IMG/VR virus record: IMGVR_UViG_3300008267_000229
Coordinates: 1 to 30,597 of that record
DNA length: 30,597 nucleotides
Direction: 5' to 3' (one strand)
Source: a virus
Shown: in pieces, positions 348 to 30,135 of the stretch
Layout of the letters: each line of letters begins with the position of its first letter
How positions within the stretch are numbered: the first letter of the stretch is position 1
Notes under the pieces: model-generated
The model's database searches: none
Told to the model about the DNA's origin: nothing
What the model saw: only the letters and a program-made list of their open reading frames with translations
Position numbers and translations under genes: made by a program

Positions 348-571
348 AGGACAGATCGTGGGACACATCGACCCCCTCTACGATGCGCCTGCCAGCGGCG
401 TTGGGACAGTAGGACAGAACTTTGCGGGTATTATCTCAGCCTATATACGTGAGGACTTATCCATAGGGTGTTCCGTATACTGGAATGATGTTGGAAAAGA
501 ACTGTCCTTCTGTCCCAATGCAGTCAGTAGGCTCATCGTAGAGGGGTAGGAAGTGTCCCAAGAACTGTCCT
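348..571. other. Candidate replication origin: symmetric iteron array
   Basis: Eight copies of the heptamer (A/G)GGACA(G/C) lie as a perfect mirror array. Four read rightward at 348-354, 360-366, 403-409 and 411-417; four read leftward at 502-508, 510-516, 553-559 and 565-571. Every pair is centred on 459.5. A second conserved block, CCCCTCTACGATG (373-385) and its inverse (534-546), is mirrored about the same point. The centre (about 425-497) is richer in A and T than the rest of the genome. The array abuts and overlaps the stop codon of the primase-helicase gene. In satellite phage P4 the related alpha primase-helicase binds iterons at ori and at crr, so an origin is the best reading; a regulatory operator array is the alternative. 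Confidence 0.75.
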
Positions 572-4001: not shown

Positions 4002-4481
4002 TTACGAGGCCCGCTGCTCCCCTCCATACAGCGCGAGGCACGCAGCATCCGCGAGCCCATCGTGGGCCTTCCTGCGCCGGCCTGGTGTAAGGTCCAGCCC
4101 GGGCAACTGCGCCGCTCGAGCGATCGACCGTGCTTTTCCCTCGCCGGGGATGTCGCGCAGGATCGTGCGCTGCCAGGACTGCGGCGTAGGCTCGATGACG
4201 TGCGGCACACGCCCCGCGAGGATCCCGCGCCAGAGGCCGACGCCGTACCCCATCCGGAACATCGACGCGACTCCCTGCCCGGGTCGAGACGCCACGCGCT
4301 CCAGCACGGCCACCGTGACCCCGTGGTCACCGCACCACTGGCCTACCAGCCCGTCCATCTGCTCGGGCACGTACCCGTCAGGGCAGAGGTCACGCGTACA
4401 GCACTGCTCCATGACGCGCCCGTGCGCGATCACTACGAGCGCCCCGTCGAGGCCGGGGTCGATGCCGAGGACGCTCGTCAT
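4002..4481 (-). CDS. RuvC-like Holliday junction resolvase
   Basis: A 159-residue nuclease of the RNase H fold. The N-terminal strand MTSVLGIDPGLDGALVV carries the first catalytic aspartate. AVLERVASRPGQG, around residue 67-79, carries the conserved glutamate. The C-terminal KAHDGLADAACLALYGG supplies the last acidic residues, in the HDxxDA arrangement typical of RuvC. It should cut four-way junctions and branched replicating DNA before packaging. Start 4481 has GAGGAGGAGCC before ATG and overlaps the upstream stop as ATGA. Length fits phage RuvC relatives. Confidence 0.9.
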   Translation of the reverse strand: MTSVLGIDPGLDGALVVIAHGRVMEQCCTRDLCPDGYVPEQMDGLVGQWCGDHGVTVAVLERVASRPGQGVASMFRMGYGVGLWRGILAGRVPHVIEPTPQSWQRTILRDIPGEGKARSIARAAQLPGLDLTPGRRRKAHDGLADAACLALYGGEQRAS

Positions 4482-4723
4482 GGCTCCTCCTCGTGATCGC
4501 CCGCGAGGATACCAGCCGCGAGCGACAGCTGTCCGCGTGCCCTGAGGTACTCGATGACGCGCCGACGCTCCTCGGAGCGCGCGAGGTGTACCTGCGTACA
4601 CCACCACTCCTGTGTCCGATCGTCGGCGTACCGATCGCGCATGCGCTTGCGCCACTTGTCGATCTGGACTCGGATCGCGTCCCACCGCTGATCGAGGAGT
4701 AGCAGATCGCTATCGCTGTCCAT
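4478..4723 (-). CDS. Hypothetical charged helical protein
   Basis: An 81-residue protein beginning MDSDSDLLLLDQRW. The start at 4723 is preceded by GGGAGGCGGTAC. Most of the chain is charged helix (IDKWRKRMRDRYADDR, ARSEERRRVIEYLRARG), suggesting a small coiled or helical protein, with an acidic end DHEEEP. It overlaps the RuvC start as ATGA and the preceding gene by 14 bases, so it belongs to the same mRNA. No family recognised. Confidence 0.6.
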   Translation of the reverse strand: MDSDSDLLLLDQRWDAIRVQIDKWRKRMRDRYADDRTQEWWCTQVHLARSEERRRVIEYLRARGQLSLAAGILAGDHEEEP

Positions 4724-6641: not shown

Positions 6642-7136
6642 ATGGAGCGAGAATACACCACACAAAACAGTCACCTCATGTCGCTCGGCAAGAAGCGCGG
6701 CGTCGGCGAGTTGCGTGAGCGTCGGTGGTACTACACTGCCGAGGAACTCGCTGAGTTGCAGGCAGAGCTTGACGCAACGCGTGTCAATCGGTCAGAGGCG
6801 CAGAAGCAAACACGCCGAGCTTCGCTTGAAGCCTACCGGAAGCGCGCGCAAGAAGCGGCACATCTCGCCATAGAGCGCGAAGTCGTGAAGCGCAAGCAGG
6901 AAGAAGAGGACGAACAGGCCCATAGGGATGGGTTGGCGCGCATGTATGACCATGACTACATCGAAGACAAGAGCGTGTTTGCCGCAGTGTCGTTCGCGCG
7001 GAAGATGATCCGTACAGGCACCAGCCCCGGACTCGCGAACTATAGAGCTGCTCGCTACTACGACGTAGATGTATCGACGGTCGCTCGCTACGTCGGGCAA
7101 GTCGCGTCTAAGAAGCGACACAAGGCGGCGCCATGA
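6642..7136 (+). CDS. Hypothetical coiled-coil protein with C-terminal HTH-like end
   Basis: A 164-residue protein. The N-terminus is polar, then a long charged helix runs through about residues 30-95 (EELAELQAEL, EAYRKRAQEAAHLAIEREVVKRKQ). The C-terminal segment YRAARYYDVDVSTVARYVGQ resembles a helix-turn-helix recognition unit. Start at 6642 has GAGGAGG upstream. Base use is noticeably less GC-rich than in neighbouring genes (for example the first 60 bases), suggesting a more recent arrival. It overlaps the next gene as ATGA. No family recognised. Confidence 0.6.
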   Translation: MEREYTTQNSHLMSLGKKRGVGELRERRWYYTAEELAELQAELDATRVNRSEAQKQTRRASLEAYRKRAQEAAHLAIEREVVKRKQEEEDEQAHRDGLARMYDHDYIEDKSVFAAVSFARKMIRTGTSPGLANYRAARYYDVDVSTVARYVGQVASKKRHKAAP

Positions 7137-7630
7137 CCGGCCCCGAACTCCTCCAGCATGCCGGCGCACTGGTCGCCATGCTTGACGCCCCTGAGGGCGC
7201 GGACGTGGACGCGATGTCCGAGGCGCTCGCTGAGTGGCTCGGTCAGTCGGACGACAAGCTGACGGCCTATTGGGCCGTCGTGAAGCGCCTCGACGCGGAG
7301 GCGCAGACGTTGCGCGACCTCGAGCAGACGCTGGCTCGACGCCGACGCTACCTCGACGGTCAGGCCGAGCGCGTGAAGACGCTGGCGTCCGAGTTGCTCT
7401 GCGCGCGTGAGGCGCTGGGCGAAGAGGCGAAGGTGAAGGGACCGCTGTTCACTGCGTGGCTGGCCACGTCCAAGAGCATCGAGGTGTCCGTCGAGGCGCA
7501 CGAGCTGCCAGCCGCGTACCAGCGGGTGCGCGTCGAGGCGAGCAAGACGGCGCTCGAGAAGGCGATCGAAGCCGGCGAGGTCATCGACGGCGTGCGGATC
7601 GTGGAGCGTCGAGGTGTCCGATGGCGTTGA
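7133..7630 (+). CDS. Siphovirus Gp157-like protein
   Basis: A 165-residue protein matching the Gp157 family found beside recombination genes in many siphoviruses. Residues 45-105 form a coiled coil (AVVKRLDAEAQTLRDLEQTL). The C-terminal half has the family sequence order: GPLFTAWLATSKSIEVSVE, then HELPAAYQRVR, then SKTALEKAIEAGEVIDGVRI. The family's exact function is not settled; its position near ERF fits a role in DNA metabolism. ATG overlaps the previous stop as ATGA. Confidence 0.82.
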   Translation: MTGPELLQHAGALVAMLDAPEGADVDAMSEALAEWLGQSDDKLTAYWAVVKRLDAEAQTLRDLEQTLARRRRYLDGQAERVKTLASELLCAREALGEEAKVKGPLFTAWLATSKSIEVSVEAHELPAAYQRVRVEASKTALEKAIEAGEVIDGVRIVERRGVRWR

Positions 7631-7878
7631 AGCGTCGGCAATACGAACGCCGAGACATCGCGGAGGGTCGTGTTCTGCTACTGCTCGCGGAGCGAGGCAC
7701 CGCCTCTTCCACGCTGATCGGTCGCTCGCTCAACTGGGACGAGAGGAAGGTGCGCTCGGTCATGCACGGACTATCGGAGCGCGGCCTCGTCGCACGGCAC
7801 GAGGATGAGCGGCGCTGGCGTCGAGCGTCGGGACAGTTCGCGCGGACGGTCGAGTACCGCTGGGAGGCTGCGCCATGA
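7621..7878 (+). CDS. Small winged-helix DNA-binding protein
   Basis: An 85-residue protein starting MALKRRQYERRDIAEG. The helix RVLLLLAERG, then TASSTLIGRSLNWDERKVRSVMHGLSERGLV, then a basic wing RHEDERRWRRASG and strand VEYRWE, is the usual order of a MarR/winged-helix domain. It may regulate early transcription or bind phage DNA. Start at 7621 has GAGGTG five bases upstream and overlaps the Gp157 gene by ten bases. It overlaps the next gene as ATGA. Confidence 0.7.
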   Translation: MALKRRQYERRDIAEGRVLLLLAERGTASSTLIGRSLNWDERKVRSVMHGLSERGLVARHEDERRWRRASGQFARTVEYRWEAAP

Positions 7879-13735: not shown

Positions 13736-15577
13736 CTACAGACTATCCCGCGCAGGATCCTCGAGGATGAGGAGCGAGAGGCCGATGGAGCCCGAGCTGT
13801 CCCACTGCACCTCACGCACGAGGGCCACCTGAGCGGACAAACCGATCTCGCTGTCCGTCACTACGACGACATCACCGCGCGAAATCTCGTCGTAGGACGC
13901 ACCCGACACGACATAATCCACCGTCCTGCGGGCGAGGGCGTACGCCTTCGCTTGAACATTTAGGATAGCGTCAGCGGTCGCCACGTCCCAGATGATCGTG
14001 GAGTCCGTCGTCATCTCGCGGACGCCCGTGTCTCGCGTCGTGCGATACCGCGCCTGGGACACAGCGCACAGGTACGAGGCGCGGGTACTCGGGTCCGTGC
14101 TGTCGTACGTGGCGTCGAGCGCGCGGTACTGCATCGAGACGTTGGTGCGTCGGTTGAAGCAGAAGTTGAGACGGAACTTGTTCGCAATCTTGCTGCTGTC
14201 TACCTTCACACGGGAGGCGCGCTGCGTCGTCGGGTCAGCGTCGGCGTCGATCGTCCAGCGGGCGTCCCGCGCCGTCGCGTCGTAGCGCCACACGACAGGG
14301 TAGAGCCCTTCCGGTCCCGTCGCCAGCGAGCAGGGCAGGATCGGCAGGAGGTTGGCCGAGAGCCATTCCCAGATGTTCACGCGCGCGTCGATCGCGCAGT
14401 CGATGCGGAAGGTGTTCAGCAGCGCCGCGGCGGTCGCGCACCGCCCCGCGTCTACCTGCATGCCCGTCTCACGCAGGAGGTACGTCAGCACGTCGCCGGC
14501 GCCTCGTACCAGCTGCCCGTCGTCGCCCACCATGCCGCCGCCCTCGTCGCTCCGGGTGCGGTCGTACCATCCGACATAGAGCGGGACGTACAGGAGCCCG
14601 CCGTTCTCGTCGGAGTACGAACGGTACGAGTCGTCGTCCAGCTCGATGTTCATGTAGTTGGATCCGAGCGTGCAGACGTTCACGCCGTTCACGGCGACCG
14701 CCGCACTACCTGCCGTGTCTCCACGCGCCACCCCGGGGCAGACCGCCACCGTGCGCCCTCGGGCGTCGGTCCAATGCTCCACGAGAAAGCCATTGTCCTG
14801 CGGGTCAAGCGCCGAGAAGCCGCCTTTGTAGAAGTTCCACGTCTGGTTCTGGATCGACTCCGTGTACAGGTACACGGTATCGGCCTGGACGCGGTGCCCT
14901 GCGATGATGATCACCGGCCCCGGGTCCGCAGCGGTTCCGCTCGGGCCTCGATCCCGCGAGATGTGTACGGCGATGCTCCCCTCCCACGCAGGATCAGAGA
15001 GGCCGGTCGTGCGCCCCGGGCGACCGAACACGACAGGGTAGACGAGGTTTGCATCCTCGGGACGCAGCGACGAATAGAAGTCCGGCAGCGTGCCAGACCA
15101 TCCGGCGAAGTACGTGCTTTGGAGCGAGTCCGGCCATGTCGAGGAGGAGACCTCCTTCCCCGGCGCTGGGATCTGCACGTCACTCTGCCAGATCTCATCC
15201 TGCAACGAGAAGTCCACCGGCTCCCACTCGGCACCGTACTCGGGATCGGTCACGCGCCCGACGAGGCGCACGCGGCGTTGCTCGTACGTCTGTCCCTCGC
15301 GCCAGAGGGCGAGCGTCCCCGTGCATCCCTCGAGGCGATGCCCTGCCGCCACCAGCGAGGGAACGTCCACGCCGAGGACAGCCGAGACGCTGACGTTCGC
15401 CTGCGGGATCTGCGAGTCCAGAAGCTCGAGCGCCTCGGAAAAGGTCATCTCCTGTAGGGCGCCGGCGTAGTGGAGATCTCCCAGCACCGACGAGGTCACC
15501 GTCAGATCATCCGTCGAGAGGCGCAGCGTCTTCCCCGCGAACTCGAGGTCGAGCAGCCAGTAGCACGCGCCGCTCAC
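13736..15577 (-). CDS. Tail-tip / baseplate hub-like protein
   Basis: A 613-residue protein beginning MSGACYWLLDLEFAGKTL. The N-terminal third has strand patterns of tail hub proteins (LRLSTDDLTVTSSVLGDL, YAGALQEMTFSEALELLD, RRVRLVGRVTDPEYG). A helical central region contains LTYLLRETGMQVDAGRCA, and the C-terminus is beta-rich (GDVVVVTDSEIGLSAQVALV). It follows the large tail protein and precedes the fibres, the usual place of the hub or tip attachment protein. Sequence alone does not settle the exact counterpart. Its ATG overlaps the preceding stop as ATGA. Confidence 0.65.
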   Translation of the reverse strand: MSGACYWLLDLEFAGKTLRLSTDDLTVTSSVLGDLHYAGALQEMTFSEALELLDSQIPQANVSVSAVLGVDVPSLVAAGHRLEGCTGTLALWREGQTYEQRRVRLVGRVTDPEYGAEWEPVDFSLQDEIWQSDVQIPAPGKEVSSSTWPDSLQSTYFAGWSGTLPDFYSSLRPEDANLVYPVVFGRPGRTTGLSDPAWEGSIAVHISRDRGPSGTAADPGPVIIIAGHRVQADTVYLYTESIQNQTWNFYKGGFSALDPQDNGFLVEHWTDARGRTVAVCPGVARGDTAGSAAVAVNGVNVCTLGSNYMNIELDDDSYRSYSDENGGLLYVPLYVGWYDRTRSDEGGGMVGDDGQLVRGAGDVLTYLLRETGMQVDAGRCATAAALLNTFRIDCAIDARVNIWEWLSANLLPILPCSLATGPEGLYPVVWRYDATARDARWTIDADADPTTQRASRVKVDSSKIANKFRLNFCFNRRTNVSMQYRALDATYDSTDPSTRASYLCAVSQARYRTTRDTGVREMTTDSTIIWDVATADAILNVQAKAYALARRTVDYVVSGASYDEISRGDVVVVTDSEIGLSAQVALVREVQWDSSGSIGLSLLILEDPARDSL

Positions 15578-18500
15578 AGCTCCTCCTCGATCCGCACCCG
15601 GGCGACTCGGTAGACTTCACCGCTCGGGTCTTCGAACTCGGAGCCCTGCACCGTATCCACCTGGAGCGTCTCGCTTCGGATGCGTCCGTACAGCTGGAGC
15701 GAAGGCGAGACGATCGTCCGCACCGTCGTGCCGCCCGTCATGGTCGCGATCTGCGGGAGGTACACGATCGGCGTCACCGCACCGTCGAGCTGCTCCATGA
15801 GCCCGAGCAGGGAGGGCGCCACGTCCGCAGGAGAGGCGATGCCACCGCCACCCGCGTGGAGGCGCACGTAGTCCACGTCGTTGCGCGCGATCGCGGTGCC
15901 ATCGACGCCCTCCTCCCACGCGATCTCGACAGCGCGGCGTGCCGGTCCCGTGCGCTGCACGCGTCGGGCGCCTCCACGCACTTCCGTGAGCTCGTACGCC
16001 GGCGTCATGCTCTGCGCCCTCGAGGCGCTGTACTGCTGCCCGAAGACGTGGAGGTATCCCTGCACGACGCAGCCCACCTCGAAGTACCCCTCGTACGTAC
16101 TCTGCACAGGGATGCGGAGCCGGTAGGCCGAGTACTCCACCGTCGTCGTCTCGGCTGCGATCACCGTCACGCTCGGCATCCAGATCTGTGCGTCATTGCC
16201 ACTCGTCGGATCACCCGCGAGCGTCGTGATCGTCGCGCGCACCTTCGTACCGGCGCCGACGCTGGCGCCTGCCCACACGCCCGGAGTCGATACAGAGATC
16301 GGACGCACACGCGTGCCGCCCGACATGACGAACCGTGCGCCGGCGAGCTCATTCGCAAGCAGCATGCGCGTGGCAATGGCCGAGCTGCCGAGCGGCGCGT
16401 CGGCCGTCACGATCTCATCGTCCCGCAGGAAGCCGAGGCCCGTCTGTCCGGTCGCAGCGTCCACCGTGGCGATGGACTGCCAGACGCCCGCGCCGTCTCG
16501 GCCCTCCCAGTACGCCGTGCGGAAGTTGATCCCGGCGAGGTGGAGGCAGCGTACCGGCCCGAGGAAGGGCGAGGTGACAGTCGGGTCGAGCTCCCACGCG
16601 ATGATCTGCTCGCTGGCTGTCGTCGTCGAGCGCCACGTCCGACGAGGCGAAGGCTCTTCCTCGACGTGGACCGCGCGCACTGGGAACCGGTAGTCGGTGG
16701 CGATCGTCCACGTATCCGAGCGGTACGCCGGCCCATCCGTGCCGTACACCTCGAGGCCACCCACCGCATAGACGGGCGTCGGCGCGAGGTCGCGCGGGAG
16801 GAGGTCCGCAGGGTTCGCCGGCGGCGTATAGATCTGCGTCTGTCCCGTGCCCGCGTACTGATCCGAGACGTACGCCATGCTGCGCCACGTCTGGTTCACG
16901 GCTACGCCGGCGCCGACACCCGAGAGGAACTGCACGCGATGCGTCGTAGAGGCGCCCTGCACGAGCGCGGCGGTTGTGCCTACCTGCACCCATGCGCGAT
17001 CTTCGGCATCGCCTCGCGCCCCTGACGCGTACCATGCCGTCGTGCGCCCGTTGTTGCCGCTGACGAGGCGGCAGCCCACCGAGATGCGGAGCCACACGCC
17101 CGTCGTCGCTGCGGTCGTGTTCACCGTCGCGATCGTCACGGCACCGGTCACGTCGAGCAGGGAGATCGTCGTCGGCGTTGCGACGATCGACGCCTCGAAG
17201 CTGTCAGGTCCAGCCACGCCGGCGCGGACACGCACGGTCGCAGCGCCCGTCGTCACGGACACCCACGCCTCCGCGATCACGCCCTGCGCCATCGTGCCTG
17301 AGGGCGATCCGGTCCACGTCGCGGAGTCACCGACGCCGCCCGTCACCGTCATGCCCGTGGCAGACAGCGCGACAGTCGGAGCGCCCGTGGAGGTGTACGC
17401 CCAGCTCGTCGCGTCCTGCACGTCGGGCAGATCGTAGGGTAGCCACGTCCGCTCCCACGTCACCATCGTGTCATGGGTGATCGGACCCGTCAGGGACGGC
17501 AGCGGGACGCTCGCCCACCCGCCCGCTGTGAGGATGGCGATGGATGCCTCAGCCGTCGCGGCTACCGAGTTGTGCTGGTGGGAGAGGACGAGGCGCCCAC
17601 GCTGCCAGCACGCCGAGAAGTAGCGTGGGTGCGTGCTACCGCTGCGTCCCTGCCAAAGCATCGCCTTGGTCGTCTGCTGCGAGCTCGAGCCGGTGCCGCT
17701 CCATTGGCTGTCAGCATAATCGTCCGTGTATCGAACAGCGATGGCGTCGTCGCCAGCAGCGGACACGTCGCGCCCGTAGGCGTACACGCGCCCCACGTCG
17801 TCAGCGACCAGTGCCATCTCGCCGTCGTTGAAGCCACCCGCGGCGCTTGTCGCCCACGACATCGGGTTGCTCGCGTCCTGCATACGGACCTCGGTCGCAC
17901 TGAGGAACAGCGAGTACGCCGAGCCGATGCGCCGGCTCCACGGGCGGCGCAGGATGCCGTAAGTAGCGTGCGTCTCCTCGCGGACGTACGAGATGATGAA
18001 GCCATCAGCGATGGCGACTACGTCACCGAGGCCACCATGGTTCGCCTCGTCGGCGCCGCTGAACTGATCTACGAGCTGGAAGGAGGCGCCGAGGTCCGCG
18101 CTCGCATACTGCGCGAGTCGAGGATCATAGGCCACCGATGTATCCACGATGTCCACGAGGAGGACGATCTGCCCGCCGTAGTAGGCGGCGCGCATGCGGC
18201 GCACGCTCTTGGATACCGTCGAGATCGATGCCTCAAGGCAGTACCGCTGGCCCGTCGTCCACGTCGCTCCGTCGTCGTCCGAGTAGGACATCCACACGTT
18301 CACCGTCGAGGAGGTGGAGTCCTCGACGCAGAAGAAGCAGAGGATGCGCCCGCTCGGCAGTTGCACCAGCGCCGGCTTCGCGCCCGTTGTGTAGACGGCA
18401 CCGATCGTCACGGCGTGCGAGAACACCAGCACGTCCGACCAGCTCGACGCCGACGAGGCGCGCCGCGAGGCGCGGACAGCCCCGCCCGTCTGGTCCTCGT

Positions 18501-18894
18501 AGGCCACCAGCAGACCATCGTCTGCGGTCGAGAGGATCACGGCATCTCGGTAGTCGTTCGCAGTGGTCGTGTACCGCACCGAGCCCCAGCCCGTGAGCGT
18601 CTGCGGGACATCCCACCCGCGCCACAGGGTCGCGCCCTGGTCACGCCACACGAAGCCGGCGCCCTCGAGCCCCGGCATGCCGGCACGGAGGGTCTGCACC
18701 TCCACCGTCGTGCCGCTCTGCTCGCCCGTCGCCACCAGCGTGGCATACGTGTCCTGCGAGGCCACCGCCTCCCCGGGCATCGGTCCCGCCTGCGTGGCGG
18801 TCGAGAGCGTCGAGGAGTAGGCGCCCTCGTACGTGAGGCGCGGATCAGGGATCAGGAGGCCGCGGAGGTATGTGCGCGTCAGAGCCGTCGCCAT
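15574..18894 (-). CDS. Large tail protein with sialidase-like propeller
   Basis: A 1106-residue protein, the largest in the genome. The first 450 residues look like a beta-propeller: an Asp-box SYSDDDGATWTTG at about 203-215, a degenerate one at 263-272 (YASADLGASF), and strand repeats such as GGQIVLLVDIV and GRVYAYGRDVS. Middle and C-terminal parts are beta-sandwich-like, Thr/Val rich, and end in VYRVARVRIEEEL. Asp boxes mark sialidases and other glycan-binding propellers, so this may bind or trim surface sugars; no catalytic set is evident. It follows the tape measure, as tip or distal-tail proteins do. Confidence 0.7.
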   Translation of the reverse strand: MATALTRTYLRGLLIPDPRLTYEGAYSSTLSTATQAGPMPGEAVASQDTYATLVATGEQSGTTVEVQTLRAGMPGLEGAGFVWRDQGATLWRGWDVPQTLTGWGSVRYTTTANDYRDAVILSTADDGLLVAYEDQTGGAVRASRRASSASSWSDVLVFSHAVTIGAVYTTGAKPALVQLPSGRILCFFCVEDSTSSTVNVWMSYSDDDGATWTTGQRYCLEASISTVSKSVRRMRAAYYGGQIVLLVDIVDTSVAYDPRLAQYASADLGASFQLVDQFSGADEANHGGLGDVVAIADGFIISYVREETHATYGILRRPWSRRIGSAYSLFLSATEVRMQDASNPMSWATSAAGGFNDGEMALVADDVGRVYAYGRDVSAAGDDAIAVRYTDDYADSQWSGTGSSSQQTTKAMLWQGRSGSTHPRYFSACWQRGRLVLSHQHNSVAATAEASIAILTAGGWASVPLPSLTGPITHDTMVTWERTWLPYDLPDVQDATSWAYTSTGAPTVALSATGMTVTGGVGDSATWTGSPSGTMAQGVIAEAWVSVTTGAATVRVRAGVAGPDSFEASIVATPTTISLLDVTGAVTIATVNTTAATTGVWLRISVGCRLVSGNNGRTTAWYASGARGDAEDRAWVQVGTTAALVQGASTTHRVQFLSGVGAGVAVNQTWRSMAYVSDQYAGTGQTQIYTPPANPADLLPRDLAPTPVYAVGGLEVYGTDGPAYRSDTWTIATDYRFPVRAVHVEEEPSPRRTWRSTTTASEQIIAWELDPTVTSPFLGPVRCLHLAGINFRTAYWEGRDGAGVWQSIATVDAATGQTGLGFLRDDEIVTADAPLGSSAIATRMLLANELAGARFVMSGGTRVRPISVSTPGVWAGASVGAGTKVRATITTLAGDPTSGNDAQIWMPSVTVIAAETTTVEYSAYRLRIPVQSTYEGYFEVGCVVQGYLHVFGQQYSASRAQSMTPAYELTEVRGGARRVQRTGPARRAVEIAWEEGVDGTAIARNDVDYVRLHAGGGGIASPADVAPSLLGLMEQLDGAVTPIVYLPQIATMTGGTTVRTIVSPSLQLYGRIRSETLQVDTVQGSEFEDPSGEVYRVARVRIEEEL

Positions 18895-24609: not shown

Positions 24610-25533
24610 TTAGAAGTCGGACAGGACGCCGACGCCGCGCAGGTCATCGAGCTCGGCCACGCCGACGAAGGCGGAGCCGACGATGATCGTGGAGCCGTTC
24701 GACGCGTCACGCTCAAACTCGACAACGATCGGGCTCTGCGGCACGGTCGTGGTGGAGCCGATCACCGGAGCGGCGGTGCCCGTCGCAACGCCGATCGCGC
24801 CGCGCGTGAACATCATGCCGAGGTAGTCGGCGCCGGCGTTCGCGGTGGGGACGGTGTTGGAGCCGAAGAGATCGACGCCGAACAGGGTTCCCTTCAGACC
24901 TGGGGGCTTTGCTTCGACCCCAGACTGAGAGGTCTGGAGGTACTGGCCGGGGCCGGTCTCGGAGCGAAGCGAGCTCATCAGATCGTTGATCTGCTGGTTG
25001 TGGAGGACCGCGACGAACTGGCCGTCGTTCGCCTGGAGCTGGAGGGCGAAGATAGCGTTGTAAAAGACGCTCACCGAGAGGTCCACGCCCGTCGAGCCGA
25101 CCGAGGTGGAGAACCCGGAGGACAGCGCGGTAAGCATGGTCGTGACGCGCTTGTTGTACGCCAGCACCATGTCGGACGCGAGGTTGTCAACCGTCACGTC
25201 CATCGGGATGCCGGTCGCGGTCAGCTGCGCGAGGTCGCTGATCTGGCGGCGGAGCGCCTGACGAGCGATCGTGACGTTCGCGTTGGTGCTGGTGAGCGAG
25301 GTGTTGGACACCGAAGCGTTCTCAGCGACCGCCGCCATGGCGTCGGCGCCCCACGACACGACGGGCACCTGCACGACGCTGGAGCCGGAGCCGTTCATCG
25401 CGCGGAGCTGCACGATCGCCGGATGGTTCACGAGGCTGGCGGTGTCCGTCAGCTTCATAAGCACGGCCTGGTTGAGGATCGCGGCAACCCTGGCGTTGCC
25501 GGTGAGCGAGCTGTAATAGACTTCGTTGGCCAT
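24610..25533 (-). CDS. Major capsid protein
   Basis: A 307-residue protein starting MANEVYYSSLTGNARVAAIL. The strand and helix order (VVQVPVVSWGADAMAAV, RQALRRQISDLAQLTATGIP, ASDMVLAYNKRVTTMLTAL, FVAVLHNQQINDLMSSLRSE, ADYLGMMFTRGAIGVATG) is that of HK97-fold capsid proteins; it has no long N-terminal delta domain. Placement after scaffold and portal supports this. Start 25533 follows GGAGGGCCGCATC. A promoter candidate precedes the gene and a hairpin follows it. Confidence 0.88.
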   Translation of the reverse strand: MANEVYYSSLTGNARVAAILNQAVLMKLTDTASLVNHPAIVQLRAMNGSGSSVVQVPVVSWGADAMAAVAENASVSNTSLTSTNANVTIARQALRRQISDLAQLTATGIPMDVTVDNLASDMVLAYNKRVTTMLTALSSGFSTSVGSTGVDLSVSVFYNAIFALQLQANDGQFVAVLHNQQINDLMSSLRSETGPGQYLQTSQSGVEAKPPGLKGTLFGVDLFGSNTVPTANAGADYLGMMFTRGAIGVATGTAAPVIGSTTTVPQSPIVVEFERDASNGSTIIVGSAFVGVAELDDLRGVGVLSDF

Positions 25534-28749: not shown

Positions 28750-30135
28750 TTATCCGAGTCGTAGCCGCTGGGGCGCGTAGGCCCTGCGCGTGATCAGCTC
28801 GCAGCCGTACCTTAGCGCGTCGAGCGTGTGCTTGTGGTTGCTCGCTTCGCGCCCGTCGAACTTGCCTAGGTCGTCGATCAGTCGCTTGCACCTCGGATGC
28901 ACGACGAAGTCGCCCCGGAGCATGGCGCTCTGGAGGATCCGGTACGAATGAAACACCGAGCCGGCTGGCTTGTAGGCGGTGTTTATCCGCGCCGGCCACG
29001 ATCCGATCGGGATCCTGAGCGCCTTCTCGAACGCTTGAACCAGCAGTGCGTTCGATTTGATCGCTCCACCTCGGCGTGAGATCGCCGCGCGGTCCCCTAC
29101 CCATCGGTCGATCTGCTCCCAGCGGAGGCCGGCGCGCTTGATCATCCCGAGGATCTGCGCGGCGTCCTCCTCGGGCGTCGTCATGCCGTTGCTCGAGACG
29201 ACATCCAGCACCGTGATCCGGGGCTCATTGTCCGCCGTCCGCGTAATCGCCACCATGACGGCAGTCTGCGCGCCGCTCTCCTTCCCGTGGTCGATCCCAA
29301 TGCCGATCTGCGCTTCACCAGCCGGCGCCTCGTCTCGGACCATCGTCGCGGGGTCAAACTGCAAGAACACGCGGCCCTCGACCCACCCGCTTTCCCACTC
29401 GCCGTGAATGCGCTGGGCGCGCTCCTGCGGCAGCACCTGCGCCTCGAGCTTGTCTATGTCGCGCTGGTGGAGGAGCGGACGCCCGCCGATCGGCGTCGTC
29501 GCCTCCACCGTGAGCGGCGTGTGGATGTCCTCGACCTCGCCCTGCTCCACCAGCTTCTTCAACCATCCGAGCGGGAGGCCGATCGGCGTCATCGTGATCG
29601 CGATCCGTCCACGCTGGCGCAGCACGCGCGCCGCGAGCTCCGACCAGATCGCTTCGGGCGGCGGTTCATCGATCAGCACGTAGTCGATCGTCGCGCCAGC
29701 GAGCGCGAGCGCGCCCTGGTTGACTGTACGGATGCGCAGCACTGAACCGTTGCGGAACCGAATGATCGGCGTGCGCCCGACGAAGCCCTTCCCGTGGACG
29801 AACGTGCAGCCTTCTTCCACACTGTCTTTCGGTAGCAGACTCCAGATCTTCTGCTGGATGCTCAGGCTCTGCTCCCACGACACGACGACTACCCACGCTT
29901 CGATCGGCGCTGCCCTGACGAGCGTGTACGGATGCGAGCCGAGGCACCGCCAGATGCAGTCGGCCACGCCGCACCATGTCTTTCCCGCCTGGTTCCCGGC
30001 GCGAAAGAGCTTGATCTGAGACGAGCTCTGGAGGAAGCGGAGCTGAGGTGGCGTCGGGCGGTAGTAGGCGAGCGGGTCTGTGTGTGCCCGCTTGCCGAGG
30101 ACGTGCGTAGCGGAGGCGAGAGCCGCGAGACTCAC
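28750..30135 (-). CDS. terL: Terminase large subunit
   Basis: A 461-residue packaging motor. Walker A is FRAGNQAGKTW at about 44-54 and Walker B DYVLIDEPPPE at 151-161. The RNase H-like nuclease domain has its acidic residues in IGIDHGKESG (Asp282), WVGDRA (Asp348) and HTLDALRYG (Asp439). It translocates DNA into the prohead and cuts concatemers. Start is GTG at 30135, overlapping the small-subunit stop as GTGA. The portal gene follows after a nine-base gap. Confidence 0.95.
   Translation of the reverse strand: MSLAALASATHVLGKRAHTDPLAYYRPTPPQLRFLQSSSQIKLFRAGNQAGKTWCGVADCIWRCLGSHPYTLVRAAPIEAWVVVVSWEQSLSIQQKIWSLLPKDSVEEGCTFVHGKGFVGRTPIIRFRNGSVLRIRTVNQGALALAGATIDYVLIDEPPPEAIWSELAARVLRQRGRIAITMTPIGLPLGWLKKLVEQGEVEDIHTPLTVEATTPIGGRPLLHQRDIDKLEAQVLPQERAQRIHGEWESGWVEGRVFLQFDPATMVRDEAPAGEAQIGIGIDHGKESGAQTAVMVAITRTADNEPRITVLDVVSSNGMTTPEEDAAQILGMIKRAGLRWEQIDRWVGDRAAISRRGGAIKSNALLVQAFEKALRIPIGSWPARINTAYKPAGSVFHSYRILQSAMLRGDFVVHPRCKRLIDDLGKFDGREASNHKHTLDALRYGCELITRRAYAPQRLRLG

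Follow-up and report, generated by a model that had tools for sequence, protein, structure and literature searches.

Mirrored iterons directly 3' of a Prim-Pol/D5 primase-helicase gene as a putative replication origin of a tailed phage

When short repeats are arranged symmetrically next to the gene of a primase-helicase, it may be asked whether they form a replication origin and, if so, whether such an origin is of a known kind. Here, we have analyzed a site of this type at 348-571 of the window, that is, the whole stretch of 30,597 nucleotides (positions 1 to 30,597, a linear fragment) given by the IMG/VR virus record IMGVR_UViG_3300008267_000229. An earlier note made from the sequence alone had taken the site for an origin.

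Eight heptamers of the form [AG]GGACA[GC] are arranged four plus four in inverted orientation (Table 1), with spacings of 12-43-8 in the left arm and 8-43-12 in the right arm. All four heptamer pairs, together with a 13-bp block, CCCCTCTACGATG, share a common centre at 459.5, and the earlier description of the heptamers, their spacings, the centre and the mirrored block proved correct to the base. However, the pairs and the block should not be counted as independent coincidences, because they are part of a single ungapped imperfect inverted repeat with arms of 76 bp (348-423 and 496-571), in which 60 of 76 positions (79%) are complementary and 72 bp separate the arms. When every centre of the whole window was scanned, this repeat was the best, the runner-up reaching only 42/76, and the binomial probability per centre was approximately 1e-18 to 1e-22. 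None of the 16 mismatches between the arms falls within a heptamer (P = 2e-4), and the 13-bp block is also free of them (P = 4e-7, post hoc). A wider site consensus, RGGACASWTC, is fully matched in five of the eight sites; elsewhere in the window a single further copy of this pattern could be identified, at 7830, and no second GGACA cluster was seen in the 30.6 kb.

Table 1. Coordinates of the mirrored repeat, its core and the adjacent gene in the window
Feature	Position	Strand	Basis or remark
Iteron L1, AGGACAG, outer left pair	348..354	+	Heptamer match
Iteron L2, GGGACAC, outer left pair, 12 bp from L1	360..366	+	Heptamer match
Second mirrored element, CCCCTCTACGATG, left copy	373..385	+	CTACGAT kept in L003, L088 and L089
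Iteron L3, GGGACAG, inner left pair, 43 bp from L2	403..409	+	Heptamer match
Iteron L4, AGGACAG, inner left pair, 8 bp from L3	411..417	+	Heptamer match
Low-GC core between the arms	424..495		GC scan
TTATCCATA, DnaA-box-like, one mismatch to the consensus TTATCCACA	457..465	+	Sole copy in the window
Iteron R4, inner right pair	502..508	-	Heptamer match
Iteron R3, inner right pair	510..516	-	Heptamer match
Second mirrored element, right copy	534..546	-	Mirrored 13-bp block
Iteron R2, outer right pair	553..559	-	Heptamer match
Iteron R1, outer right pair; last base within the primase stop codon	565..571	-	Heptamer match
Primase-helicase, 782 aa	571..2919	-	Prim-Pol (PF09250), D5_N (PF08706), DUF5906 (PF19263)

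The surroundings of the repeat were then considered. The A/T-richer core that had been expected between the two halves was borne out: the 72 bp with the lowest GC content of the whole window are found here, at 429-500 (38.9% versus 66.8% overall). The stop codon of the Prim-Pol/D5 primase-helicase gene marks the start of the repeat, which thus lies directly 3' of the gene. Genes for a terminase large subunit (28750-30135) and a major head protein (24610-25533) indicate that the window belongs to a tailed phage and not to a satellite. Other genes in the window encode a RuvC-like resolvase (4002-4685) and a Sipho_Gp157 protein (7133-7630), and the 1106-aa product of 15574-18894 weakly matches BNR repeats. 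It should be noted that GC skew was uninformative, because the putative origin is located 350 bp from the contig end.

Mirrored GGACA iterons could also be identified directly 3' of the primase gene in close relatives of the phage, namely L003 (94% DNA identity to the window, primase 99% identical), L087/L054 (primase identity 67%), L088 (63%) and L089 (71-73%). The spacing of 12-43-8 is common to the window, L003 and L087, and is 12-43-9 in L088 and 11-11-43-9 in L089, which has five iterons per arm; the outermost left iteron of L087 is degenerate. When the five genomes were pooled, 112 of 114 iteron positions matched between the arms, versus 146 of 238 other positions (24/53 between the iterons of L087). 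The earlier view that the bases between the motifs had diverged is clearly right for the relatives but only partly so for the window, where 32 of 46 such bases still match. In four of the five genomes, each arm has the element CTACGAT between its outer and inner pairs, and the DnaA-box-like TTATCCATA was found in the cores of L003, L087 and L089 as well and is missing from that of L088. Two further differences from L003 were noticed. First, the seventh base differs jointly (G to C, window versus L003 6874-7098) in five of the eight iterons, while the last 83 primase residues are identical in both despite these changes, which suggests conversion among the sites or a free seventh position. Second, approximately 300 bp of L003 (7405-7704), apparently an extra small gene, correspond to a direct junction at 41-44 of the window.

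These comparisons bear on the possibility of a structured origin, in which a cruciform or stem-loop extruded from the arms would be recognized by the replication protein; such origins have been proposed for pRN1 and for some phages. The pRN1 origin has a stem-loop of ~100 bp in the same place, and its authors extend the idea to phages (PMC4234260); the complementarity of the arms in the window would agree with such a structure. However, since the matches outside the iterons are lost in the relatives, pairing of the arms is not maintained, whereas the words and their spacing are. In addition, single arms folded no better than shuffled sequences, and a loop of 72 nt would make a poor hairpin. 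A stem-loop origin was rejected on the loss of pairing and the folding result, and we regard it as improbable. BIP-1, which has been cited as a precedent for a stem-loop, was set aside, as the stretch examined contains no repeated word.

Phages often have operators in inverted clusters, and iterons can also autoregulate. The sites might instead control the transcription of the replication genes or of the downstream small gene and have no part in the start of replication. On the other hand, the cluster is found at the 3' end of the primase gene and not upstream of it, a consensus scan of 1-1200 revealed neither a sigma-70-like promoter nor a terminator, for which reason a promoter or terminator role of the repeat was rejected, and the arrangement tracks primase 3' ends over numerous lineages, with an origin annotation in Lactobacillus phage A2. 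A purely regulatory role appears very unlikely.

The primase-helicase itself is the proposed initiator. Its AlphaFold model (pLDDT 87.9, pTM 0.58) has a predicted C-terminal winged helix at residues 699-762, with the order helix-strand-helix-helix-strand-strand. The top match among solved structures was the SaPI5 primase-helicase 7ola (Z 30.4, 390 residues, rmsd 4.5, model residues 293-768), and this match takes in the winged helix; AsfvPrimPol and poxvirus D5/E5 were matched as well, and entries of dodecamers or head-to-head double hexamers occur among the solved relatives (AsfvPrimPol, MPXV E5). The protein may bind the RGGACA iterons just downstream of its own gene through this C-terminal winged helix. 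Two ring helicases would then be seated by the inverted arms in mirror orientation, one on each flank of the AT-rich core, probably as a double hexamer; the core would melt, perhaps with the host DnaA acting at TTATCCATA; and the two helicases, each with its own Prim-Pol, would start two forks, so that replication would be bidirectional. The reading of 348-571 as a tailed-phage replication origin rests on conservation in the relatives, the position 3' of the initiator gene, the low-GC core, the homologous position of the annotated A2 origin and the protein structure, and is well supported. The complete scheme, in which an origin resembling those of SaPI/PICI elements and A2 uses the primase-helicase as its initiator, with mirrored rings, core melting and two forks, is in our opinion highly probable. 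We also looked for a recognition code in the winged helix. In a Mantel test of 41 loci, rho was about 0 (partial correlation -0.035, reached by 728 of 1,000 permutations), and iteron words were shared among close relatives only. Thus, similarity of iterons does not track similarity of winged helices beyond close relatives, and a recognition rule could not be demonstrated.

To see how far the layout extends, 110 loci with related primases were collected, mostly chosen by protein, with 7 taken from a GGACA scan. Under a strict test, a locus counted as positive when two adjacent identical 6-mers faced an adjacent pair in mirrored orientation at a distance of 40-140 bp, within the 330 bp that follow the stop codon; 42 of the 110 loci were positive, versus 0 of 2,200 shuffles. 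A looser test requiring at least four mirrored copies was positive in 52% of 104 protein-selected loci, versus 4.7% of shuffles and 9.1% of other stretches of the same loci; by these criteria, approximately half of the related primase loci are without mirrored repeats. The words differ by lineage and include GGTGAC, TGACGC, GGGACA, TGTTAC and ACGGGA, among others. Isolate phages with the layout include phi105, AcaML1, A9Y, Eponine and Listeria phage FHC15313-PLM26. Of these, the Mycobacterium phage Eponine has GGGACA as its iteron word. Mirrored repeats 3' of a related primase were absent in the isolate actinobacteriophages Kurnik, Powerpuff, Clayda5 and Shady (L102, L108, L110 and L111), and in the last three a DNA polymerase I gene is located nearby. 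The earlier note had regarded homologues that keep the primase and lack the heptamers as evidence against an origin; close homologues do keep the heptamers and distant ones have the mirrored layout with other words, but these four phages are without it.

Some additional features were observed among the loci. The Singulisphaera plasmid pSINAC02 has mirrored AGTACC repeats 3' of a related primase gene. Five loci (L041, L073, L029, L085 and L109) contain a second mirrored block, often palindromic, between the outer and inner iterons (like AACCCTTGnnnnnCAAGGnTTYCAG), and CCCCTCTACGATG of the window occupies the position matching this block in such extended origins. The second block is possibly a site for another protein. 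A first scan of genome contigs gave no matches.

The inner geometry was also searched in IMG/VR, as GGACA pairs mirrored over 72-102 bp. This pattern was found in 82 stretches, versus 2 for a permuted control word. More than three-fifths of the stretches (53 of 82) are located 3' of an initiator gene (20 AAA_25, 17 VapE, 11 D5 and 5 DUF5906), a count that is partly circular, as the initiator panel was built from some of the same 82 loci, although the Pfam assignments are independent. Thus, one iteron word appears to serve initiators with different motors; examples after AAA_25 (RecA-like) and VapE initiators, as after D5, are L010, L022, L069, L011 and L018. The site in the window might still be a recent inverted duplication or some other passive DNA feature without function, in favor of which the matching bases between its iterons could be cited if the window were taken alone. 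This is hardly credible, as the repeat is kept in five genomes despite diverged spacers and the GGACA pattern far exceeds the permuted word and is mostly found 3' of initiator genes. Direct rather than mirrored GGACA pairs gave 58 IMG/VR matches (L116-L161), some beside the same initiators, and are perhaps another origin layout. An element CAAnGnTT beside the GGACA iterons was present in both arms in only 8 of 81 loci and in at least one copy in 27 of 81, versus 0.07 expected per 60-mer; it is a lead and not a result.

A broader generalization may be offered tentatively, and we put it at somewhat below an even chance. A single origin grammar might extend far beyond PICIs, with inward-facing iterons 7-13 bp apart flanking a melting core of ~60-95 bp directly 3' of the initiator gene, and with a group of outer iterons and another mirrored block added in the extended form. 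It would operate across many phyla, in phages as well as in prophages and plasmids, and even with initiators whose ATPase motors are unrelated (D5, VapE and RecA-like AAA_25). As several of these share the GGACA core word, origin recognition would have been exchanged or have converged across helicase families.

Previously recognized in certain mobile elements, the layout turns out to have a much broader distribution among phages than had been described; it was seen here in tailed phages, prophages and one plasmid. Its frequent occurrence in phages and prophages and its spread across helicase families are, in our view, a more interesting result than the single site. For uncharacterized phages, a search for mirrored words shortly after the 3' end of a Prim-Pol/D5, VapE or AAA_25 gene could serve as a simple rule for predicting the origin. 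In addition, the exact 4+4 site and its small single-protein initiator would be a handy test case for the placement of self-loading double-hexamer helicases and the melting of the core.

In phage P4, the initiator is likewise a primase-helicase (alpha protein) with iterons, and ori and crr are two separate sites; nothing was found in favor of the earlier suggestion that the two are fused into one site here, and this idea is not supported. A literature search for a GGGACA phage origin gave no relevant description. The claim that no origin with such a layout had been described is not supported, since every PICI origin has an AT-rich region with a set of iterons on each side (PMC6092414) and the A2 origin is annotated at the same place. 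The A2 rep_origin lies directly 3' of a P4-type primase and has the same 12-bp outer and 8-bp inner spacings (ACGGGA iterons at +9, +21 and +85, inverted at 163, 171, 227 and 239). It differs from the window in its word, in its outer-to-inner distances (64 and 56 bp versus 43) and in having only one inner iteron in the left arm.

For SCCmec, the C-terminal domain of Cch2, a D5-type helicase that forms hexamers and dodecamers, binds repeats just 3' of its own gene, as SaPI Rep does (PMC7581432), and the window protein may by analogy bind in the same manner. Unlike the window, SCCmec has three direct AAGTG repeats, and its inverted repeats are dispensable for Cch2 binding (PMC7581432). The pRN1 origin resembles the window in that a required inverted structure lies directly 3' of a Prim-Pol/SF3/winged-helix gene (PMC4234260). 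It has been interpreted as a stem-loop in which the symmetry is important, whereas the window and its relatives conserve the iterons and not the pairing, with arms that in the relatives are not complementary between the iterons and no excess of folding. The closest agreement is with the SaPI/PICI origins (SaPIbov1, SaPI1, SaPI5, EfCIV583 and the E. coli PICIs), which lie just beyond the 3' end of the pri-rep gene. In the window, the outermost iteron overlaps the primase stop at 571, the 4+4 iterons surround a core with the minimum-GC 72 bp, and the initiator, which in SaPI/PICI elements binds by its C-terminal domain, has the corresponding domains, a predicted winged helix and a SaPI5 protein as its top structural match. 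Unlike these satellites, which are without their own head and packaging genes, the window has both terminase and major head protein genes, and its RGGACA word and exact 4+4 mirror, with outer and inner pairs and a second mirrored block, set it apart from SaPI origins, known here by description. Thus, the window fits the SaPI/PICI layout and not the pRN1 stem-loop, and appears to hold a known kind of origin, in a phage and with an unusually exact, extended geometry.
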